From: Bacteroidia bacterium
GTDB lineage: Bacteria > Bacteroidota > Bacteroidia > Chitinophagales > Saprospiraceae
DNA: 33,830 nucleotides
Direction of reading: 5' to 3'
Assembly: GCA_018680005.1 (NCBI GenBank)
Contig: JAHHJQ010000130.1
Location: forward strand, 1-33,830
Positions 5,013 to 27,373 of this stretch are shown piece after piece. How positions within the stretch are numbered: the stretch's first letter is position 1; the number at the start of each line of letters is the position of its first letter. The position numbers and the translations under genes are program-made. The notes below the pieces were generated by a model. It had not been told where the DNA came from, did no database searches, and saw nothing but the letters and a program-made list of their open reading frames with translations.

Positions 5013-5873
5013 ATGAAACTAGAAGGAAGACGACGAAGCACAAATGTCGAAGATCGGAGGGGTAGAAGTACCGGTAAAATTGTCGGTGGCGGACTTGGAA
5101 TCGGTGCAGTGCTTTTTATAATATTTCAACTTTTGTCTGGCGGTGATGCATCAGATGTCCTTAGTCAAATCCAACAACAGCAGCAACCTGCTCCACAACA
5201 AGGTCAGGTTCAACATTCTCCAGAAGAGCAGGCATGGTATGATTTCACGACCAAGGTGGTAGCCTCAACTGAAGATATTTGGACACGCGAAATGAGAAAA
5301 CAATTAGGCAGACAGTATCAACCTCCTAAGGTTGTGATTTTCACAGGCCAGACGCAATCTGCCTGCGGCTTTGCCAGTGCAGCTACCGGACCTTTCTATT
5401 GCCCAGGTGACAACAAGGTATATCTGGATCTTGGATTCAGAAAACAGCTTGAACGTCAATTTGGTGCTCGTGGTGATTTTGCTATGGCATATGTAGTCTC
5501 TCACGAAATAGGTCATCACATTCAAAATCAGCTTGGCTATACTCAGCAAGTTCATGCTCAAAAAGGTCGTGTATCCAAAGCTCAATATAATGACCTTTCA
5601 GTTCGATTGGAATTAATGGCGGACTTCCTAGCAGGAGTTTGGGCACATCATGAATATCAAACTTTTGGTTCACTGGAAGAAGGAGATATCCGAGAAGCAC
5701 TTGATGCCGCACATGCCATTGGGGATGATAATATTCAAAAGAAATCACAGGGATATGTAGTTCCTGAATCCTTTACACATGGCACTTCAGAACAAAGGAT
5801 GAGATGGTTTACTAAAGGACTGCGAACCGGTGATCTTAATCAAGGTGATACATTCAACGCACGGGTGCTTTAA
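5013..5873 (+). CDS. YpfJ-type neutral zinc metallopeptidase, membrane anchored
   Basis: A 286-aa member of the putative neutral zinc metallopeptidase family (YpfJ). A charged Arg-rich N-terminus (residues 1-24) precedes one transmembrane helix (about 25-45), then a Gln/Pro-rich linker and the peptidase domain. The zinc motif HEIGHH has His164, Glu165 and His168. Glu200 in LELMADFLAG is the likely third ligand. The family typically carries CGxA and FYCP-type motifs, and both are seen here as SACGFASAATGPFYCP. The substrate is unknown. Its stop codon overlaps that of the convergent gene at 5870 within a TTAA palindrome. Confidence 0.9.
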   Translation: MKLEGRRRSTNVEDRRGRSTGKIVGGGLGIGAVLFIIFQLLSGGDASDVLSQIQQQQQPAPQQGQVQHSPEEQAWYDFTTKVVASTEDIWTREMRKQLGRQYQPPKVVIFTGQTQSACGFASAATGPFYCPGDNKVYLDLGFRKQLERQFGARGDFAMAYVVSHEIGHHIQNQLGYTQQVHAQKGRVSKAQYNDLSVRLELMADFLAGVWAHHEYQTFGSLEEGDIREALDAAHAIGDDNIQKKSQGYVVPESFTHGTSEQRMRWFTKGLRTGDLNQGDTFNARVL

Positions 5874-6394
5874 AGATAGTTTGCCCGGTTCTCTTTGTAG
5901 AATTGATTCAATTGTCTAAAATCCAGCTTTCCGTTGACGGATTTTAAATAATCCAAAGTCATAAGCGCTTTTCTCAATCGAGTATCTGATGACTTTGGCT
6001 TTCCGATGATATGCAACAAGCTACGTTGTTTACCCTTGGTCAGTGCATGAAATAACTGCTCACCATGTACATCTTGTATTAATAACTCCTCCATTTCCGG
6101 AGGAAGTGGTATGCCATACTTGCTTATATCCTCTGCCAATTCAACATAAGCCGTATCTCCAAGACCGAGATTCAACTTTTTTCTTACATCCTTATTAATA
6201 TTGATAAAATAAGTACCATCACCCTTTGGCATCAGAGCACATTGAATCGAAATTCGATCATTAATCGTGCATACGACTCTGGACCCTGATGATTTCAAAA
6301 ATAATAGAGAAACATCCTTAGGAATTGGTAAATGCATGTTCCATACCGCAGAATCCAATTTGGTGACTATACTTGAAAATTTCTTTGTTGTCAA
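5870..6394 (-). CDS. YdeI/OmdA-like protein (DUF1905 plus OmdA-type domain)
   Basis: A 174-aa cytosolic protein with two parts. Residues ~5-95 resemble DUF1905, a small beta-barrel-like domain (hydrophobic strands, LPIPKDV, GDGTYFININKDVRKKLNLGLGD). Residues ~105-170 resemble the bacteriocin-resistance YdeI/OmdA C-terminal domain. The molecular function is unknown; the name comes from a family implicated in resistance to some antimicrobials. The frame opens at TTG (6394-6392), since a TGA lies two codons further upstream. The next in-frame start is an ATG at residue 20, inside the first domain, so TTG is favoured. An ATG at 6404 is in another frame. Confidence 0.7.
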   Translation of the reverse strand: MTTKKFSSIVTKLDSAVWNMHLPIPKDVSLLFLKSSGSRVVCTINDRISIQCALMPKGDGTYFININKDVRKKLNLGLGDTAYVELAEDISKYGIPLPPEMEELLIQDVHGEQLFHALTKGKQRSLLHIIGKPKSSDTRLRKALMTLDYLKSVNGKLDFRQLNQFYKENRANYL

Positions 6395-6627
6395 AGGCGC
6401 TCATTTTCTTGATTACAAGATATAAATTCCTTTTCTGTGATTTGTCTACCTCCCAGGTCAAGAATCTACAGCTGTCATTACGTCATCTTGTTACAAAACA
6501 ATACTGACATAAAATCCTGACTATCAATACAATTATGACATTGTTACTTATTTCATCTTATTGGTCGAAGATTTGATACATTCATTTGTACAATGCTTAA
6601 CTTTCAATCCAATTTGAATCATACGAT

Positions 6628-9447
6628 ATGACATACGATAACTTTACAATAAAAGCACAAGAGTCAATTCTGAAGGCTCAGCAAATAGCCGGTGCTTTAC
6701 AACAGCAATCTGTCGATACACCACATCTGATCAGAGGAATCATGGAAACAGATGAGAAGTTGGCGGAATATCTTCTCAATAAGATCGACATCAATACCGA
6801 AACACTAAAGCAGCATTTGGATAAGGCGATCAGGGCTTATCCTAAAGTAAAAGGTACCGATAAGCAATATCTGACGGACCATGCTAACAAAGCTTTGAGC
6901 CGAGCCAAGAAAATGCTCAAAGAAATGGGCGATGAATATATTTCTGTAGAACTCATGCTTCTTGGAATCCTGAAAGGAACAGATAAGGGCGCCACAATAT
7001 TAAAAGACCTTGGGGCCACTGAAAAAAACCTTAAAGCCGCAATTCATGAGTTGCGTAAAGGTAGGAAGGTGACAGATCAGCATAGTGAAGACAGTTACAA
7101 CGCCTTAAATAAATATGGCATCAATCTAATAAGTAGAGCCGAATCTGGAAAACTTGATCCTATCATTGGGAGAGATGAAGAAATTCGACGTGTCCTGCAT
7201 ATTCTATCTCGAAGAAAAAAGAATAATCCACTCCTTATTGGTGAAGCGGGAGTCGGTAAAACAGCCATTGTTGAAGGCATAGCATGGAGAATCGTAAATC
7301 AGGATGTCCCTGAAAATTTGAAGTCCAAGAAAATTTATACCCTGGACATTGCGGCCTTAATAGCAGGAGCCAAATTCAAGGGAGAATTTGAAGAACGCCT
7401 CAAAGCAGTAATTAAAGAAGTGACGGCTTCTGATGGTCAGGTCATACTTTTTGTTGATGAAATCCATACTCTGATAGGTGCAGGTGGTGGAAGTGGCGCT
7501 ATGGATGCTGCTAATATTTTAAAACCCGCACTGGCAAGAGGGGAACTTAGAACCATTGGAGCGACCACATTAGACGAGTATCAGAAATATTTTGAAAAGG
7601 ATAAAGCATTGGTAAGAAGATTCCAGACCATTCTTATTGATGAACCAAGTGTAGAGGAGACCATAAGCATACTAAGAGGTCTTCAGGAAAAATATGAAGT
7701 ATATCACCGGATGGAGATCCTGGATGAAGCCCTTATTGCAGCAGCTGAATTATCACACAGATATATATCAGATCGGCACCTTCCTGATAAGGCGATAGAT
7801 CTCATTGATGAAGCGGCAGCCAAATTAAGATTGGAATTAGATTCTCTTCCTGAAGAAATTGATGAGGCTGATCGTAAACTTCGCCAGTTTGAAATAGAAA
7901 GGGAAGCCATCAAAAGGGAAAAAGACAAAAAGAAGCTCAAAAGTATCAACGAGCTAATTGCCAATGCCAAAGAAAAACTGGACAGCATAACCGCAGCATG
8001 GTCTACAGAGAAGGAAATCGTCGATACTATTTCAAAAATTAAATCTGAAATCGATCAGCTAGAGGTTGAAGCGGATCAAGCAGAAAGGGAAAGCGATTAC
8101 GAAAAAGTGGCTACTATCCGGTATGGCAAAATGAAAGAACTGGAAGTTAAACTCAAAGTGGCTGAAGAAAAGCTTGATGATCTTGACGAAGCATCCCGGT
8201 TTACCAATGAAGAAGTCACTGCTAATGATATAGCAGAGGTAGTTGCCAAGTGGACCGGTATCCCCGTAGCCAAAATGCAACAAAGTGAAAAAGAGAAATT
8301 ACTACATCTTGAAGATACTATAGGTGAAAGATTGATAGGTCAGATTGAAGCAGTGACAGCTGTATCTGATGCCGTCAGAAGATCACGCTCTGGTTTGCAG
8401 GATCCTAAACGTCCCATCGGGAGTTTTATATTTCTAGGTCCTACAGGAGTTGGTAAGACAGAATTGGCAAAAGCTCTGGCTGAGGTATTATTTGATGACG
8501 AAAAAGCCATTACCAGAATTGATATGTCGGAGTTCCAGGAAAGGCATTCCGTATCCAGATTGGTAGGGGCTCCTCCTGGTTATGTAGGATATGATGAAGG
8601 AGGTCAACTAACGGAGGCTGTCCGAAGAAAGCCATACTCAATCATACTGCTGGATGAAATCGAAAAAGCACATCCGGATACATTCAACATTCTCTTACAA
8701 GTATTGGATGATGGTATACTTACCGATAATAAGGGTCGTGTGGCCAATTTTAAGAATACGATTATCATCATGACATCGAACATGGGAGCACAAACCATCC
8801 TGGAAAATTTTGAGGATCTTGATGCTTTGGGTGATAAACACAGAACAGAGATCGTCGAGACAACAAAGTTAGAGGTCTTTGAAATGCTCAAGGAACACTT
8901 GCGACCGGAATTCCTAAACAGGATTGATGAAAAAATTATGTTCCTCCCTCTTACTAAAGCAGAAATCAAACAGATCCTAAAGATCCTATTGAGAAAGGTT
9001 GAGAAAATGCTTTGGCAAAAGGAAATGAAGATAGAAATGAGTGATACCGCTATGTCATTGATCGCTGATTTGGGATATGATCCGCAATTTGGTGCCAGAC
9101 CCCTGAAAAGAGTTTTGCAAAAGGAAGTGATTAATGAACTTTCAAAATTTTTACTCGGAGGGGAATTTACTTATGGCGATACGATCATCGTTGATACTGA
9201 CGCCAAAGGTTTAGTCTTTACCAAAAAAGGTAGTGGTGCAATCGTGGGTAGTAACCCAACGGAAAAGCCTCCGGTTGCTACCAAGAAGGATAACACCCGT
9301 CAAAAGCAGGTGGACAAGCTTATCAAGGCTACAGAAGATGTTAGGGATACCATAAAGGACATGAAAAAAGACACCGAAGGGAACGAGAAGAATGATGATG
9401 ATGGTCCGGATCCAAAACCAAAAAGAAAAAGAGGTCGGAGAAGCTAA
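6628..9447 (+). CDS. clpB: ClpB disaggregase with a charged C-terminal extension
   Basis: Hexameric AAA+ chaperone that extracts polypeptides from aggregates together with DnaK. The N-domain has two Clp repeats (1-145). AAA-1 has Walker A GEAGVGKT at 205-212 and Walker B VDE at 276-278. The middle coiled coil at about 410-530 contains LDSLPEEIDEADRK and YGKMKELE, features that mark ClpB rather than ClpC or ClpA. AAA-2 has GPTGVGKT at 604-611 and Walker B Asp676/Glu677. No IGF/IGL ClpP-binding loop is apparent. The protein is 939 aa, about 70-80 longer than a usual ClpB. The excess is a hydrophilic Lys/Asp/Glu-rich tail ending in KPKRKRGRRS. No CIRCE element is visible upstream. The 233-base spacer to the divergent YdeI-like gene holds only a weak TAACTTTC box (6598-6605). 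Confidence 0.93.
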   Translation: MTYDNFTIKAQESILKAQQIAGALQQQSVDTPHLIRGIMETDEKLAEYLLNKIDINTETLKQHLDKAIRAYPKVKGTDKQYLTDHANKALSRAKKMLKEMGDEYISVELMLLGILKGTDKGATILKDLGATEKNLKAAIHELRKGRKVTDQHSEDSYNALNKYGINLISRAESGKLDPIIGRDEEIRRVLHILSRRKKNNPLLIGEAGVGKTAIVEGIAWRIVNQDVPENLKSKKIYTLDIAALIAGAKFKGEFEERLKAVIKEVTASDGQVILFVDEIHTLIGAGGGSGAMDAANILKPALARGELRTIGATTLDEYQKYFEKDKALVRRFQTILIDEPSVEETISILRGLQEKYEVYHRMEILDEALIAAAELSHRYISDRHLPDKAIDLIDEAAAKLRLELDSLPEEIDEADRKLRQFEIEREAIKREKDKKKLKSINELIANAKEKLDSITAAWSTEKEIVDTISKIKSEIDQLEVEADQAERESDYEKVATIRYGKMKELEVKLKVAEEKLDDLDEASRFTNEEVTANDIAEVVAKWTGIPVAKMQQSEKEKLLHLEDTIGERLIGQIEAVTAVSDAVRRSRSGLQDPKRPIGSFIFLGPTGVGKTELAKALAEVLFDDEKAITRIDMSEFQERHSVSRLVGAPPGYVGYDEGGQLTEAVRRKPYSIILLDEIEKAHPDTFNILLQVLDDGILTDNKGRVANFKNTIIIMTSNMGAQTILENFEDLDALGDKHRTEIVETTKLEVFEMLKEHLRPEFLNRIDEKIMFLPLTKAEIKQILKILLRKVEKMLWQKEMKIEMSDTAMSLIADLGYDPQFGARPLKRVLQKEVINELSKFLLGGEFTYGDTIIVDTDAKGLVFTKKGSGAIVGSNPTEKPPVATKKDNTRQKQVDKLIKATEDVRDTIKDMKKDTEGNEKNDDDGPDPKPKRKRGRRS

Positions 9448-22971: not shown

Positions 22972-23003
22972 GGGTTGGCAATATTTGATTGTCAACCCTT
23001 TTT
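22972..23003. terminator. Intrinsic terminator between convergent operons
   Basis: GGGTTGGCAAT (22972-22982) and ATTGTCAACCC (22988-22998) form an 11-bp stem with one G-T pair and a 5-base loop. TTTTT follows at 22999-23003, overlapping the stop codon of the minus-strand gene. The A-rich left flank gives a T-rich tail on the minus strand as well, so it may work in both directions. Confidence 0.85.
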
Positions 23004-25419
23004 ATTTTGAATAGACTTCGATGGTGTTACCAGCTATTATGTCATCATTGGTTATATCAAATGACCCGAGTGTGTCGTTTCCATGATTGAGTCTATAGTT
23101 TCCTTGAGCTTTAATCGATAGATCTTCACTCAACTGGTCTGTAGCATAAGGGACTCGTGTCGAAAACTTCCCTGTATCATCACATTCTACGGTTTTGGTA
23201 TATACAATTGTTCTGTTGGATGTATTGGATTGAAGTTCTAGTATAATATTCAAACTTGCATTGGGTTGGAATTTGCCCTTTACTTCTGCCCCTTTAACTA
23301 TTTCAAATACCTTAACCCAAGGTCCATAATATCCTTGATAAAAAACTCTGTTTCCAGTTCCATCACCAAGTGTTTCAACATTTTGTGAAAAATAGTTGTG
23401 CTCTTCATTGGTCAACATCTCTCTGTCATATCTCTCAAAAGTATTCCCGTCAGAAATGTAAGAGGTAAAGCCATATTGAGGTGAATCCCATATCAATCGG
23501 TAATGCGAAAGATTATTTCCATCCTTTGCATATAATTTGTTTACAATGGAATTATCAAATGCACTTCCAAATGTGAATAAATTAATAGTTCGACCACCAT
23601 AATTAGTCTGTCTTTGTGTATTATATGCTGATAATCCTAAACCTGCTGTATTGGCCTTGGAAGAAAAATAAGTACCATTAGATCGTGCATCCACCACAGC
23701 GTATTTTACTTTTTCATGCCCTTCACAATCCGGACAGAGATTACGTAATGATTCTTGTTCTGATTGCGACATCATCCATTTAGGTACTTTCGCAGCGGGC
23801 CATCTACTCCAGACCGGAATCCGTTTGGCCCTCTGATTAATGATATTTCCAAAATCCCAGGCGCAAATAATTCCATAGTCGTTTTCTCCATATGAAACAT
23901 TGCCATTGATTCGTTTTTCGTCGTCTAAGAATTCGTTGATTGGGTTATCAATTTGAGGCGTATTTTCTCTAATCCAATCGGCTGCGGAATACCATCCCTC
24001 CTGATAAATTATTCCTTGCCTTATTGATTGCTCCGTAAAGTAATATTGATTATTAGAAGTGATCGCAAATTTTGAAAGGATAAGAATAATCGAAATACCA
24101 ATAATCGAATAATTAGAATATTGCTTGATTTTTTCGCCGACAAAATCTTCTAAGAAGCAGATAATAACAGAAATACCAATAATCGACATGAGGCACATAT
24201 ATGGCGAGACCATATAGCCCATATCAAATGTATTGAGCCACATCCAAACAAAAAACCCCGAAAAGACAGTGGTCAAAGATAGTGCTCTGAATTCTTTTCT
24301 TATGAAACCAGCAAGTCCACTTACCACAATACCAAAAAGTCCAAAGTAACCGGCAGCTTCATTAATTTTAAAAAACCTGGTGTAATCTATAACTGCATTT
24401 TCAACAAGATTGGTTGCCTGCATATTCATCATTTGAATAGCTCTGACACCAACATTTGTGTTGTTAAAAACAAGGTAACTGATCACTAAGCCGAATCCGA
24501 ATAACCCAAAGGCTATTATCTTATGATTAGTAATATATTTTTTCAGAAACTTGGCGACATAGAGTTGCGTCGGGCCTAAAACACCTAAGACTAGCAGAAC
24601 CAGTATTACTTGAAAAGTAATTCTGGTATCGAAAAGAACAATTATTTCTGGCCAAAATAAATGTAGTATAAACAACTGCAATCCTGCTGATATGCCATAA
24701 ACACCAAATCGCTTAGCATAATTATTAATTTTATAGTTATGATAAATCAAAACTGTATTGATCAAAAGCAGGGTGAATGCATATAGTATGACATACAAAG
24801 GAGATCCATTCCAGCAAGTAAAAAATATAACTAGCGGGATACTTGCCAGGATCCCATTTTTGAATGAAAAGCTTTCTTTAAATAAATGAATCAAGCTATA
24901 AATTATCCATAGGCTTAATACTATCTCAACCACATGGTGATCACTAAAACCAAGAACCGATCTCGGAAGAGATAGCCCTGGAAAAAACAGGTATAAGAGT
25001 CCGATAGAAAATCCATGATAAATGGAAAATAGCTTTGATCCAATAAGAAATAATAAAAGTCCAATCATGCAACCTAAAATAACAGGTATGTAAGCCAGCA
25101 CTTTAGCCTCGATCTGAGGATGATCATAAAACACATCTACAAGCTTTATAAGGGTTGCATTGAATACAGTATAAAACCCGGTTAAATCAGAATAAACTCC
25201 GTTGGGGTAGTGTGTGCCGTGATCGACTTTTGATATTTTCGGATAGTTTTGAACAGCAGTTTCTGCTTGACGTAAATAAAAATATGGATCAACACCTAAA
25301 AGTCTAACCTCGTCCTCCGAAGGAAAGATTGTTGAATTTAAATTAATTGTTCTTGTAATAAAGCAACCAGCAACAATAATCAAAATAAAACCAAGACTTA
25401 ATAGTTTCTCCGTTTTCAT
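23002..25419 (-). CDS. STT3/AglB-family oligosaccharyltransferase, archaeal-like
   Basis: An 805-aa multi-pass membrane protein that by family transfers a lipid-linked glycan to Asn in N-x-S/T sequons on the outer face of the inner membrane. The first-loop motif GVDPYFYLR has Asp44, and DHGTHYPNG follows. GFSDHHVVE (157-165, Asp160) stands where the DxD-like metal motif lies. NLVE (Glu340) is a candidate TIxE-loop acid. WWDYG appears as AWDFG at 520-524. About 12-13 helices fill 1-455. After them comes a soluble domain whose end (VKVFEIVKGAEVKGKF, FSTRVPYATDQ, GNYRL) resembles the C-terminal domain of archaeal AglB as I recall it. It overlaps the VanZ-like gene by ATGA. The second Trp of WWDYG is kept, and the first is Ala. 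The DNA looks AT-richer than its surroundings by eye. Confidence 0.85.
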   Translation of the reverse strand: MKTEKLLSLGFILIIVAGCFITRTINLNSTIFPSEDEVRLLGVDPYFYLRQAETAVQNYPKISKVDHGTHYPNGVYSDLTGFYTVFNATLIKLVDVFYDHPQIEAKVLAYIPVILGCMIGLLLFLIGSKLFSIYHGFSIGLLYLFFPGLSLPRSVLGFSDHHVVEIVLSLWIIYSLIHLFKESFSFKNGILASIPLVIFFTCWNGSPLYVILYAFTLLLINTVLIYHNYKINNYAKRFGVYGISAGLQLFILHLFWPEIIVLFDTRITFQVILVLLVLGVLGPTQLYVAKFLKKYITNHKIIAFGLFGFGLVISYLVFNNTNVGVRAIQMMNMQATNLVENAVIDYTRFFKINEAAGYFGLFGIVVSGLAGFIRKEFRALSLTTVFSGFFVWMWLNTFDMGYMVSPYMCLMSIIGISVIICFLEDFVGEKIKQYSNYSIIGISIILILSKFAITSNNQYYFTEQSIRQGIIYQEGWYSAADWIRENTPQIDNPINEFLDDEKRINGNVSYGENDYGIICAWDFGNIINQRAKRIPVWSRWPAAKVPKWMMSQSEQESLRNLCPDCEGHEKVKYAVVDARSNGTYFSSKANTAGLGLSAYNTQRQTNYGGRTINLFTFGSAFDNSIVNKLYAKDGNNLSHYRLIWDSPQYGFTSYISDGNTFERYDREMLTNEEHNYFSQNVETLGDGTGNRVFYQGYYGPWVKVFEIVKGAEVKGKFQPNASLNIILELQSNTSNRTIVYTKTVECDDTGKFSTRVPYATDQLSEDLSIKAQGNYRLNHGNDTLGSFDITNDDIIAGNTIEVYSK

Positions 25420-26249
25420 TGATTGGATGGTTTGTCGATATTATAATAAAGCAATGGTATTAGACACATGATCAATAGTCCTGGGTACGTACGGATTCTG
25501 TGCCATGTTGTTTTGAAACTAACTGTATACCAAAAATTTGTATCAAAGTCTTCTTTAGGATGCCTGGCTAAAGGATACACTCCATCAGATTCCTTAAAAA
25601 CTGAAAATAAACCTAATTGTAATCCAAAGAATATGATTAGAGCCAATAATAGAATACCAGTATATGGCGTCTTCAAAAGACTTTTTACAGAATAACTAAA
25701 CTTTGTATCAGACGGTCTTTTCCAGAAAGTATATGAGAGAATGACACCAAGGGCAGATGCCAAAACATTTAAAACCAAGTCATTGAAGTCTAGATAATAC
25801 TTTTGTGTTACGAAATACTGATAATACTCATCCAAATAACCAATAAAAGTTGAAAGAACTATGGCGTAAAAAAGAGACGGTGATAACGGTGTTACAATAA
25901 TGCCTAGCAATGCATATTGAATAAAATGCATGCCTTCCGAACGATAAGGCATTAGTGTCAAATAGGCCGCTAGAATGCCAAATAAGGTAGCGATTCCATA
26001 GATTAAAATATTCTTCTTTTCTCCATGTTCCCTTATTTTATAGTATACGATATATACCATCGAAATAAGTACACATGTAAAGAATATATTTAAATATAAG
26101 TGGAATGCTTTATGTCCCAGTTGATCTACCATCCAATAGAACGGCTGCGAAGCTTTATCATGAATCAATGGGTATATGATAGCCAATGCCACGACAAGGA
26201 CAATATTTACTCTTTGGTTATCATGTAACCATTGAATTGCTAGTTTCAT
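25416..26249 (-). CDS. VanZ-like membrane protein with extended C-terminus
   Basis: A 277-aa membrane protein with about six helices. The VanZ-type core (about 100-170) has EGMHFIQYALLGII, GYLDEYYQYFV and YLDFNDLVLNVLASALGV, the conserved H/Y, DExxQ and D-D-N pattern. The family name comes from teicoplanin resistance, but most members have no known function and many sit in surface-glycan loci. About 100 residues beyond the core contain two more helices flanking a soluble loop (VYPLARHPKEDFDTNFWYTVSFKTT). It is translationally coupled to the oligosaccharyltransferase by a 4-base overlap and lies 8 bases after the CBM9-like gene. A role in glycan or lipid carrier handling is inferred from context only. 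Confidence 0.8.
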   Translation of the reverse strand: MKLAIQWLHDNQRVNIVLVVALAIIYPLIHDKASQPFYWMVDQLGHKAFHLYLNIFFTCVLISMVYIVYYKIREHGEKKNILIYGIATLFGILAAYLTLMPYRSEGMHFIQYALLGIIVTPLSPSLFYAIVLSTFIGYLDEYYQYFVTQKYYLDFNDLVLNVLASALGVILSYTFWKRPSDTKFSYSVKSLLKTPYTGILLLALIIFFGLQLGLFSVFKESDGVYPLARHPKEDFDTNFWYTVSFKTTWHRIRTYPGLLIMCLIPLLYYNIDKPSNQ

Positions 26250-26257
26250 GATGGTTT

Positions 26258-27373
26258 TTATTTGTTTGTGTTAGGAATCTTTACAAGTAATGAAGATTCA
26301 TCAACCTTAAGGATATATTCCTGATCGTCTTTCGATTTGTAATGTGCCATAATTTCATATTGCTCACCATCAGAATTAATGATTAGTTTATCGACATATG
26401 GCAGTTTCAGGAAGGAAGAATCCACTTCATCAATTGTGCTGGCAAAAAATCCATTTTCTTTTTTAAAAGCCTCTTGCAATTTATAAAGCCCCATGAGCTG
26501 ATCTCTTACTTTATTTTCTCTCCACTTAGGCTCTTGATAAGTGCTATCCGTAAACATCAATAATCCCCATTTTTCCGGTGCATGCATGTTTATTTCACCT
26601 TGTTGTGACCAAACCCAGTTGTATTCAGGTCTATTGGGTACCTGTTGGTATTTCCCATTGTTTATTTCATGATCCCAATGCACCCTCGAGAAATTTATTC
26701 CCCAAATGTCTCCTGCTATAGGTCTAGGCTGAGTTAACACTCTTGTATAATTTTTTCTGTAATCATATAAATCCTGAAACGGTATAGCTATTTCAACGAC
26801 CCAATTAGTATCAACATCAGAAGGGTCATTTACGGTTCCATTATGCCCAACAGCTGTTTTCAAACCGGGTAAATTAGTCGGATCTATCGCTGGTCCACCG
26901 TTGCGATAAGGTTTCTCAAGCGTCAATTCCCAAATCGTATTTAATACATTCAATTCTAATTCATAGTAATTGTGATGGTCTCGGTCTGGATCAATAAATA
27001 CCTCAAAGTCATTGCCGTATTTGTATATGGGAATATTCTTTTCCGTTACATATCCCCAAATGTGTTCCTCTTCCAAATTTGCCAGAATGTATAAATACGA
27101 GGAGTCCCAAAGCATCTTCATCTTTGTATCATAGAAGGGCATAGCCTTTTTCGCACCTTCGATATCAACAAATGACTCGGACCACTTGGCTTGCTTCCAA
27201 ATGCTTTCATTTCCATTGCCATCAATAGTAGGTGCGGAATGGATAAAGTGACACTGATAGACTTTTGTGTGCTGATTTGGAGATATAACTGATTCTAAGG
27301 AATTACACTTTATGAAGAATACTAGTGAAGCAATGAATGCCAGGCACTGCCACTTTGATGATTTAGAGAACAT
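26258..27373 (-). CDS. Exported carbohydrate-binding family 9-like protein
   Basis: A 371-aa protein, first gene of the cassette. The N-terminus is hydrophobic (about 9-22) with a Cys at 23 preceded by Lys, so lipoprotein processing is possible but the lipobox is poor. The CBM9-like beta-sandwich (about 45-275) shows APTIDGNGNESIWKQAKWSESFVDIEG, MKMLWDSSYLYILANLEEEHIW, FEVFIDPDRDHHNYYELELN and WVVEIAIPF. The remainder (about 290-371) is a smaller alpha/beta tail. CBM9 domains bind the reducing ends of glycans, but this stand-alone Bacteroidota group has no proven ligand that I know. The gene is 8 bases from the VanZ-like gene, so it is co-transcribed. Confidence 0.85.
   Translation of the reverse strand: MFSKSSKWQCLAFIASLVFFIKCNSLESVISPNQHTKVYQCHFIHSAPTIDGNGNESIWKQAKWSESFVDIEGAKKAMPFYDTKMKMLWDSSYLYILANLEEEHIWGYVTEKNIPIYKYGNDFEVFIDPDRDHHNYYELELNVLNTIWELTLEKPYRNGGPAIDPTNLPGLKTAVGHNGTVNDPSDVDTNWVVEIAIPFQDLYDYRKNYTRVLTQPRPIAGDIWGINFSRVHWDHEINNGKYQQVPNRPEYNWVWSQQGEINMHAPEKWGLLMFTDSTYQEPKWRENKVRDQLMGLYKLQEAFKKENGFFASTIDEVDSSFLKLPYVDKLIINSDGEQYEIMAHYKSKDDQEYILKVDESSLLVKIPNTNK

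Follow-up and report, generated by a model that had tools for sequence, protein, structure and literature searches.

Most PglB homologues reported to have been tested for activity are from Epsilonproteobacteria, and a few are from Deltaproteobacteria or Aquificae (PMC4894442), so an oligosaccharyltransferase (OST) in a member of the Bacteroidota is unusual. In the open-access full-text literature on OSTs in Bacteroidetes, we found nothing on the six-member clade described here. Substrate contacts are known for several characterized enzymes. The position of D47 in Archaeoglobus fulgidus AglB-L (AfAglB; 3WAJ/5GMY/7E9S), an archaeal N-glycosylation OST, is a ligand of the metal and the acceptor amide (PMC8342417). 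Donor phosphate is bound by R426 of AfAglB, R404 of the yeast enzyme, and R375 of PglB (PMC8342417, PMC7226087), and the R375A mutation abolishes PglB activity (PMC6215017). In the WWDYG motif, the WWD forms hydrogen bonds with the +2 Ser/Thr of a sequon (PMC7226087).

An AglB-type protein in a Saprospiraceae genome

The stretch of DNA analyzed here (the window) is positions 1 to 33,830 of contig JAHHJQ010000130.1, from a Saprospiraceae (Bacteroidota) genome (GCA_018680005.1). The gene of interest and its C-terminal domain are as follows.

23002..25419, minus strand: AglB/STT3-type OST homologue, 805 amino acids, ATG start, no internal stop
23020..23292, minus strand: AglB_L1 C-terminal peripheral domain, residues 710 to 800 (PF18079, E = 1.7e-14)

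An earlier note, made from the sequence, had recognized an archaeal-type ("long") AglB at exactly this position, and our searches bear this out. Only one NCBIfam model matched the window OST, TIGR04154 (archaeo_STT3, the haloarchaeal OST of archaeosortase A systems); the match runs end to end (residues 11 to 797, E = 2e-73), but its 248.1 bits do not reach the model cutoff of 450 bits. The same model matched all six clade members (best E = 1.5e-88), and the Halocatena salina copy of this haloarchaeal enzyme could be aligned directly. By sequence, AfAglB is the only full-length solved relative of the window OST: the E value was 1e-25 with the single sequence (5gmy/3waj) and 5e-65 with the clade profile, which aligned to almost the whole chain. 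The likeness to AfAglB includes the C-terminal core (PF22627 AglB core domain, E = 4.2e-6) and the AglB_L1 domain, which was found in 6 of 6 clade members. PF02516, the STT3 N-terminal model, did not match the window OST; it matched three of the six members (best E = 4.6e-15). The short motifs that the note had listed, DPYFYLR (within GVDPYFYLR), GFSDHHVVE, NLVE, and AWDFG, and then VKGAEVKG, VPYATDQ, and GNYRL in the AglB-like C terminus, were all found in the order of STT3 enzymes, an agreement far beyond chance. By this full-length homology, the window OST belongs to the STT3/AglB/PglB superfamily.

In an AlphaFold2 model of the protein (pLDDT 68.5, pTM 0.68), the part before residue 453 forms about 13 long helices and a mixed domain follows, a secondary structure predicted with moderate confidence. 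The predicted architecture is thus about 13 transmembrane helices plus a periplasmic C-terminal domain, as expected of the STT3 superfamily. When the model was compared with solved structures, as the earlier note had proposed, AfAglB gave the best match in the PDB (3wak, E = 4.6e-27, TM 0.63), a match at the level of the overall fold; around the active-site loops (residues 35 to 81, 326 to 343, and 522 to 544) the model is weak, with pLDDT values below 50. Ranks 1 to 19 were all OSTs, and the first non-OST, at rank 20, was the C-mannosyltransferase DPY19. With PglB of Campylobacterota and Desulfobacterota, the protein has a catalytic scheme as well as the STT3 fold in common (fold matches 5ogl and 6gxc), but PglB is far more remote than AfAglB (fold-search E values of ∼4e-8 to 6e-8).

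Active-site residues kept and replaced

The active-site positions of the window OST, assigned by alignment to AfAglB, are as follows.

25288..25290, minus strand: D44 (AfAglB D47, first DxD), invariant in the six full-length members
24934..24942, minus strand: D160-H161-H162 (AfAglB D161-H162-H163, metal ligands), D160 and H162 invariant
24400..24402, minus strand: E340 (AfAglB E360, the Glu of TIXE in EL5), invariant
24223..24225, minus strand: D399, an invariant Asp replacing the donor-phosphate Arg (aligned to AfAglB R426, PglB R375, and yeast R404)
23848..23862, minus strand: A520-W-D-F-G524, an altered WWDYG with the first Trp gone; [A/P]W[D/E]xG across the clade

The catalytic acids named in the earlier note, D44, D160, and E340, are all present in the alignment and, together with H162 and R153 (the counterpart of AfAglB R154), are invariant in 6 of 6 full-length members. 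The window OST thus has the metal ligands of AfAglB (D47/D161/H163) and its E360, as well as the DGxGLxHYR segment.

Two substrate-binding elements are changed throughout the clade. First, HMMER and two profile-profile alignments all place D399 opposite AfAglB R426. Between residues 166 and 475 the clade has no invariant Arg, Lys, or His, so the donor-phosphate Arg has not simply been relocated. Second, in the clade members that have the region, WWD is [A/P]W[D/E], two of its three positions being kept. All six intact members lack both the donor-phosphate Arg and the first Trp of WWDYG. Both are kept in Halocatena AglB and both are present in PglB (R375, WWDYG); a PglB-like protein of canonical appearance in a Pseudomonadota genome (L071:81-2513) has GWFDTDP, WWDFG, and a KRF that by eye resembles the same Arg. 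Since the Halocatena and Pseudomonadota proteins keep these features, the changes are marks of the clade. There are further differences from AfAglB. The position of H81, near the phosphate site, is D, Q, N, or H in the clade, and the Lys and Met of the DK/MI motif appear not to be conserved in place: the Asp is mostly kept, and K588 is invariant but shifted by ∼4 to 5 residues in the alignment relative to AfAglB K618. At D399 one may speculate about an altered contact with the donor head group or a metal-bridged phosphate.

Judged from sequence, the window OST is OST-like in its core, and what sets it apart is the pair of clade-wide changes in the substrate sites; of the features of functional N-glycosylation OSTs that we tested, the donor-phosphate Arg is missing and the WWD motif is incomplete. 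With the catalytic carboxylates kept and two elements replaced in every intact member, the clade offers a natural experiment in OST requirements.

The loss of the Arg, replaced in every member by an invariant Asp, the variability at the H81 position, and the appearance of DPY19 as the first non-OST fold match would all fit a GT-C enzyme that arose from STT3 but has switched donors, for example to a polyprenyl-monophosphate monosaccharide as in DPY19 or ArnT, and is no longer a block-transferring OST. However, the AfAglB donor itself has a single phosphate and R426 is still kept there (PMC8342417), so a monophosphate donor alone cannot explain D399. In addition, conservation extends over the entire C-terminal half of the OST, the part that binds the acceptor peptide, and the fold matches to OSTs are far better than that to DPY19. 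We regard a donor switch of this kind as unlikely.

The changes in two motifs of characterized OSTs could also mean that the protein is decayed or inactive, and one paralogue, in the genome of a "Bacteroidetes" metagenome-assembled genome (MAG), is indeed broken, its N-terminal part ending near transposase and recombinase genes. But the clade members, at 23 to 32% identity to the window OST, have 50 invariant positions in common, catalytic residues included; all six reading frames are open, and gene order is kept. These observations indicate purifying selection rather than decay, and we consider an inactive homologue very improbable.

Distribution and phylogeny of the clade

The clade consists of the window OST and its homologues in a second Saprospiraceae MAG (L021 = L023), two Rhodothermales-type MAGs (L022 = L025, and L024, the "Bacteroidetes" MAG, which groups with L022), a Myxococcota MAG (L026), and Planctobacterium marinum K7 (L027), a gammaproteobacterium that is a cultured type strain (PMC8656390). 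It thus spans Bacteroidota, Rhodothermota, Gammaproteobacteria, and Myxococcota. A scan of genome contigs with the window protein alone as query found no relatives; with a three-member profile, five were found. No relatives were found in the viral contigs searched, and the plasmid search returned only Halocatena salina.

The gene is rare, occurring in 0 to 3% of the sampled genomes per group. Among near relatives of the window genome it was present in 2 of 61 (the window's own genome counted). The window's phylum had 2 full-length cases in 395 genomes, its order had only the window itself (1/349), and the class of the Rhodothermales member had 2 in 146. The three cases among 398 genomes in the phylum of P. 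marinum were P. marinum itself, a separate PglB-like protein, and a weak fragment. Other Bacteroidota gave partial TIGR04154 matches with E values of 8e-7 or weaker; our guess is that these resemble other GT-C proteins.

In a maximum-likelihood tree of 29 sequences, only two of them archaeal AglBs, the six members were monophyletic (support 100/98), the two archaeal AglBs were separate from them (100/99), and a large set of other AglB-like proteins was separate as well (91/98). The two Saprospiraceae proteins were sisters (100/99), yet they are only 32% identical, which indicates an old, patchy bacterial lineage. Because the clade is deep and old, with members spread over the four groups named above, the earlier note's suggestion that the gene was gained from archaea does not hold as it was put, a recent gain being unsupported. 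An ultimate archaeal ancestry is possible, and a tree with two archaeal sequences gives neither its date nor its direction; published trees nest other bacterial STT3s within the euryarchaea and indicate at least two transfers (PMC4973528).

We also rejected MAG contamination and recent transfer from archaea as complete explanations. The gene lies mid-contig among ordinary bacterial genes, it is shared with the second Saprospiraceae MAG, and it branches with bacterial relatives. Its G+C content is only mildly lower (0.34 to 0.38, compared with ∼0.39).

The set separated at 91/98 consists of AglB-like proteins from the phylum of the Myxococcota MAG. They resemble the clade in the catalytic D, the DHH, the E, and an AglB_L1-type C-terminal match; unlike the clade, they keep the Arg, in most cases have no E following DHH, and show much heavier erosion of WWDYG (for example, PPSLG, HANLG, or AWGDG). 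In that phylum, 53 of 237 sampled genomes had such proteins, often several (loci L044, L045, and L047 to L065). From their sequences, they are a second large bacterial AglB-like family beside the six-member clade.

Gene neighborhoods and the predicted reaction

Two genes lie immediately upstream of the window OST.

25416..26249, minus strand: VanZ-like membrane protein, 277 amino acids (VanZ match 2.2e-5, below cutoff), overlapping the OST start by 4 nt
26258..27373, minus strand: CBM9-like probable lipoprotein, 371 amino acids (PF06452, 1.9e-11), 8 nt upstream of the VanZ-like gene

In the window, L021, L022, and L024, the gene just before the OST is VanZ-like, which makes it a conserved partner gene; the predicted model of the window's VanZ-like protein was too poor for a fold search (pLDDT 58). 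The CBM9-like gene has the same order in L024 (L024:2203-3480, 43% identity). Directly downstream of the OST in L022 and L024 is a large SdrD_B/GEVED/beta-helix repeat protein, with a type 9 secretion (T9SS) tail detected in L024; these repeat proteins are plausible acceptors. No glycosyltransferase cluster was found in the window. The P. marinum OST adjoins genes for a GT2, an ABC-2/ABC exporter, a GDP-mannose dehydratase, and a GT15, and in the Myxococcota MAG the OST has four GT4 genes, an ABC transporter gene, and an epimerase gene around it; neither locus has a VanZ gene. The P. marinum glycan cluster has two Glyco_transf_15 proteins (L027:235-1257 and 5699-6721, E = 3e-23 and 3e-21), members of the fungal Kre2/Mnt1-type alpha-mannosyltransferase family, which is unusual in bacteria.

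A Bac_transf initiating sugar-phosphate transferase occurs in every one of the six hosts, but also in 9 of 14 control genomes, and all six have Wzy/WaaL-type ligase candidates (PF04932); such proteins are common and not diagnostic. Exosortase was not found in four of the six hosts. Family matches (exosortase/archaeosortase) occurred in the window's own genome (G000:C209:5089-5520 [L077], partial, 1.5e-14) and in the Myxococcota MAG (G500:C39:398476-399237 [L076], 4.5e-55). With two of six hosts, a link between exosortase and the clade is weak, and we set it aside.

The N-X-S/T counts of the neighboring exported proteins were not significantly above expectation, in what was a small test. With this result, the Arg-to-Asp change, and [A/P]W[D/E] in place of WWD in every member, the N-glycosylation route proposed in the earlier note is not supported in the form in which it was stated. 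Alternatively, the protein could be a glycan ligase whose acceptor is not Asn, acting in Ser/Thr O-glycosylation or on a lipid or polysaccharide. O-glycosylation is known in Bacteroidota, the motif of the +2 Ser/Thr pocket is changed in all members, the exported neighbors lack sequon enrichment, and two members lie within polysaccharide-export-like clusters. Yet the residues that clamp the acceptor amide, D44 and E340, are kept along with the W-D/E of WWD, and every host already has separate candidates for a Wzy/WaaL-type ligase. On balance, we judge a non-Asn acceptor to be rather improbable.

The reading that we favor, with slightly better than even confidence, is that the gene encodes a divergent AglB-family, OST-like inner-membrane enzyme that would transfer a polyprenyl-linked glycan to an exported protein. 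Counting for such transfer are the homology to TIGR04154 and AfAglB, the OST folds, the invariant catalytic residues, and the two loci with glycan clusters; counting against it are the Arg-to-Asp change, the lost first Trp, the lack of sequon enrichment, and the lack of a glycosyltransferase cluster in the window. In the proposed mechanism, ordinary envelope-glycan machinery would make and flip the polyprenyl-linked glycan, and the OST-like enzyme would transfer it en bloc to an exported protein in the periplasm, the simplest acceptor being an Asn side chain. Two sites are rebuilt relative to characterized OSTs: in the donor-phosphate site Arg has become Asp, and the +2 hydroxyl pocket lacks the first Trp. 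Consequently the donor chemistry and the acceptor motif are predicted to differ from those of PglB and AglB. In the Bacteroidota branch, the VanZ-like protein is translationally coupled to the OST, and we would guess at a probable role in lipid-carrier handling or as an accessory subunit; the CBM9 lipoprotein may, as a further guess, bind the glycan. More tentatively, and with some doubt, the clade might be a fourth, cross-phylum kind of OST beside Stt3, AglB, and PglB, marked by D399, the Trp loss, and a VanZ partner in Bacteroidota; such an enzyme would handle its donor differently and recognize a new acceptor motif.

If these enzymes do transfer glycans, OST-type protein glycosylation would extend to Bacteroidota and Gammaproteobacteria, and glycoengineering could gain an OST that recognizes a new acceptor motif. 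The presence of a member in cultured P. marinum K7 makes direct testing feasible (PMC8656390).

Two further observations concern the Rhodothermales-type genomes. The L024 genome has a second OST copy that is broken into two pieces (L069:224-2279 and L024:1383-2303): its N-terminal half stops just short of transposase-like and recombinase genes, and its C-terminal part lies at the beginning of another contig. This copy (the L046 paralogue) also has a VanZ-like gene upstream. In both genomes, three tandem secreted proteins, LVIVD-repeat-like by the appearance of their sequences, are encoded near the OST loci (L022:64-4128 and L046:261-4459).
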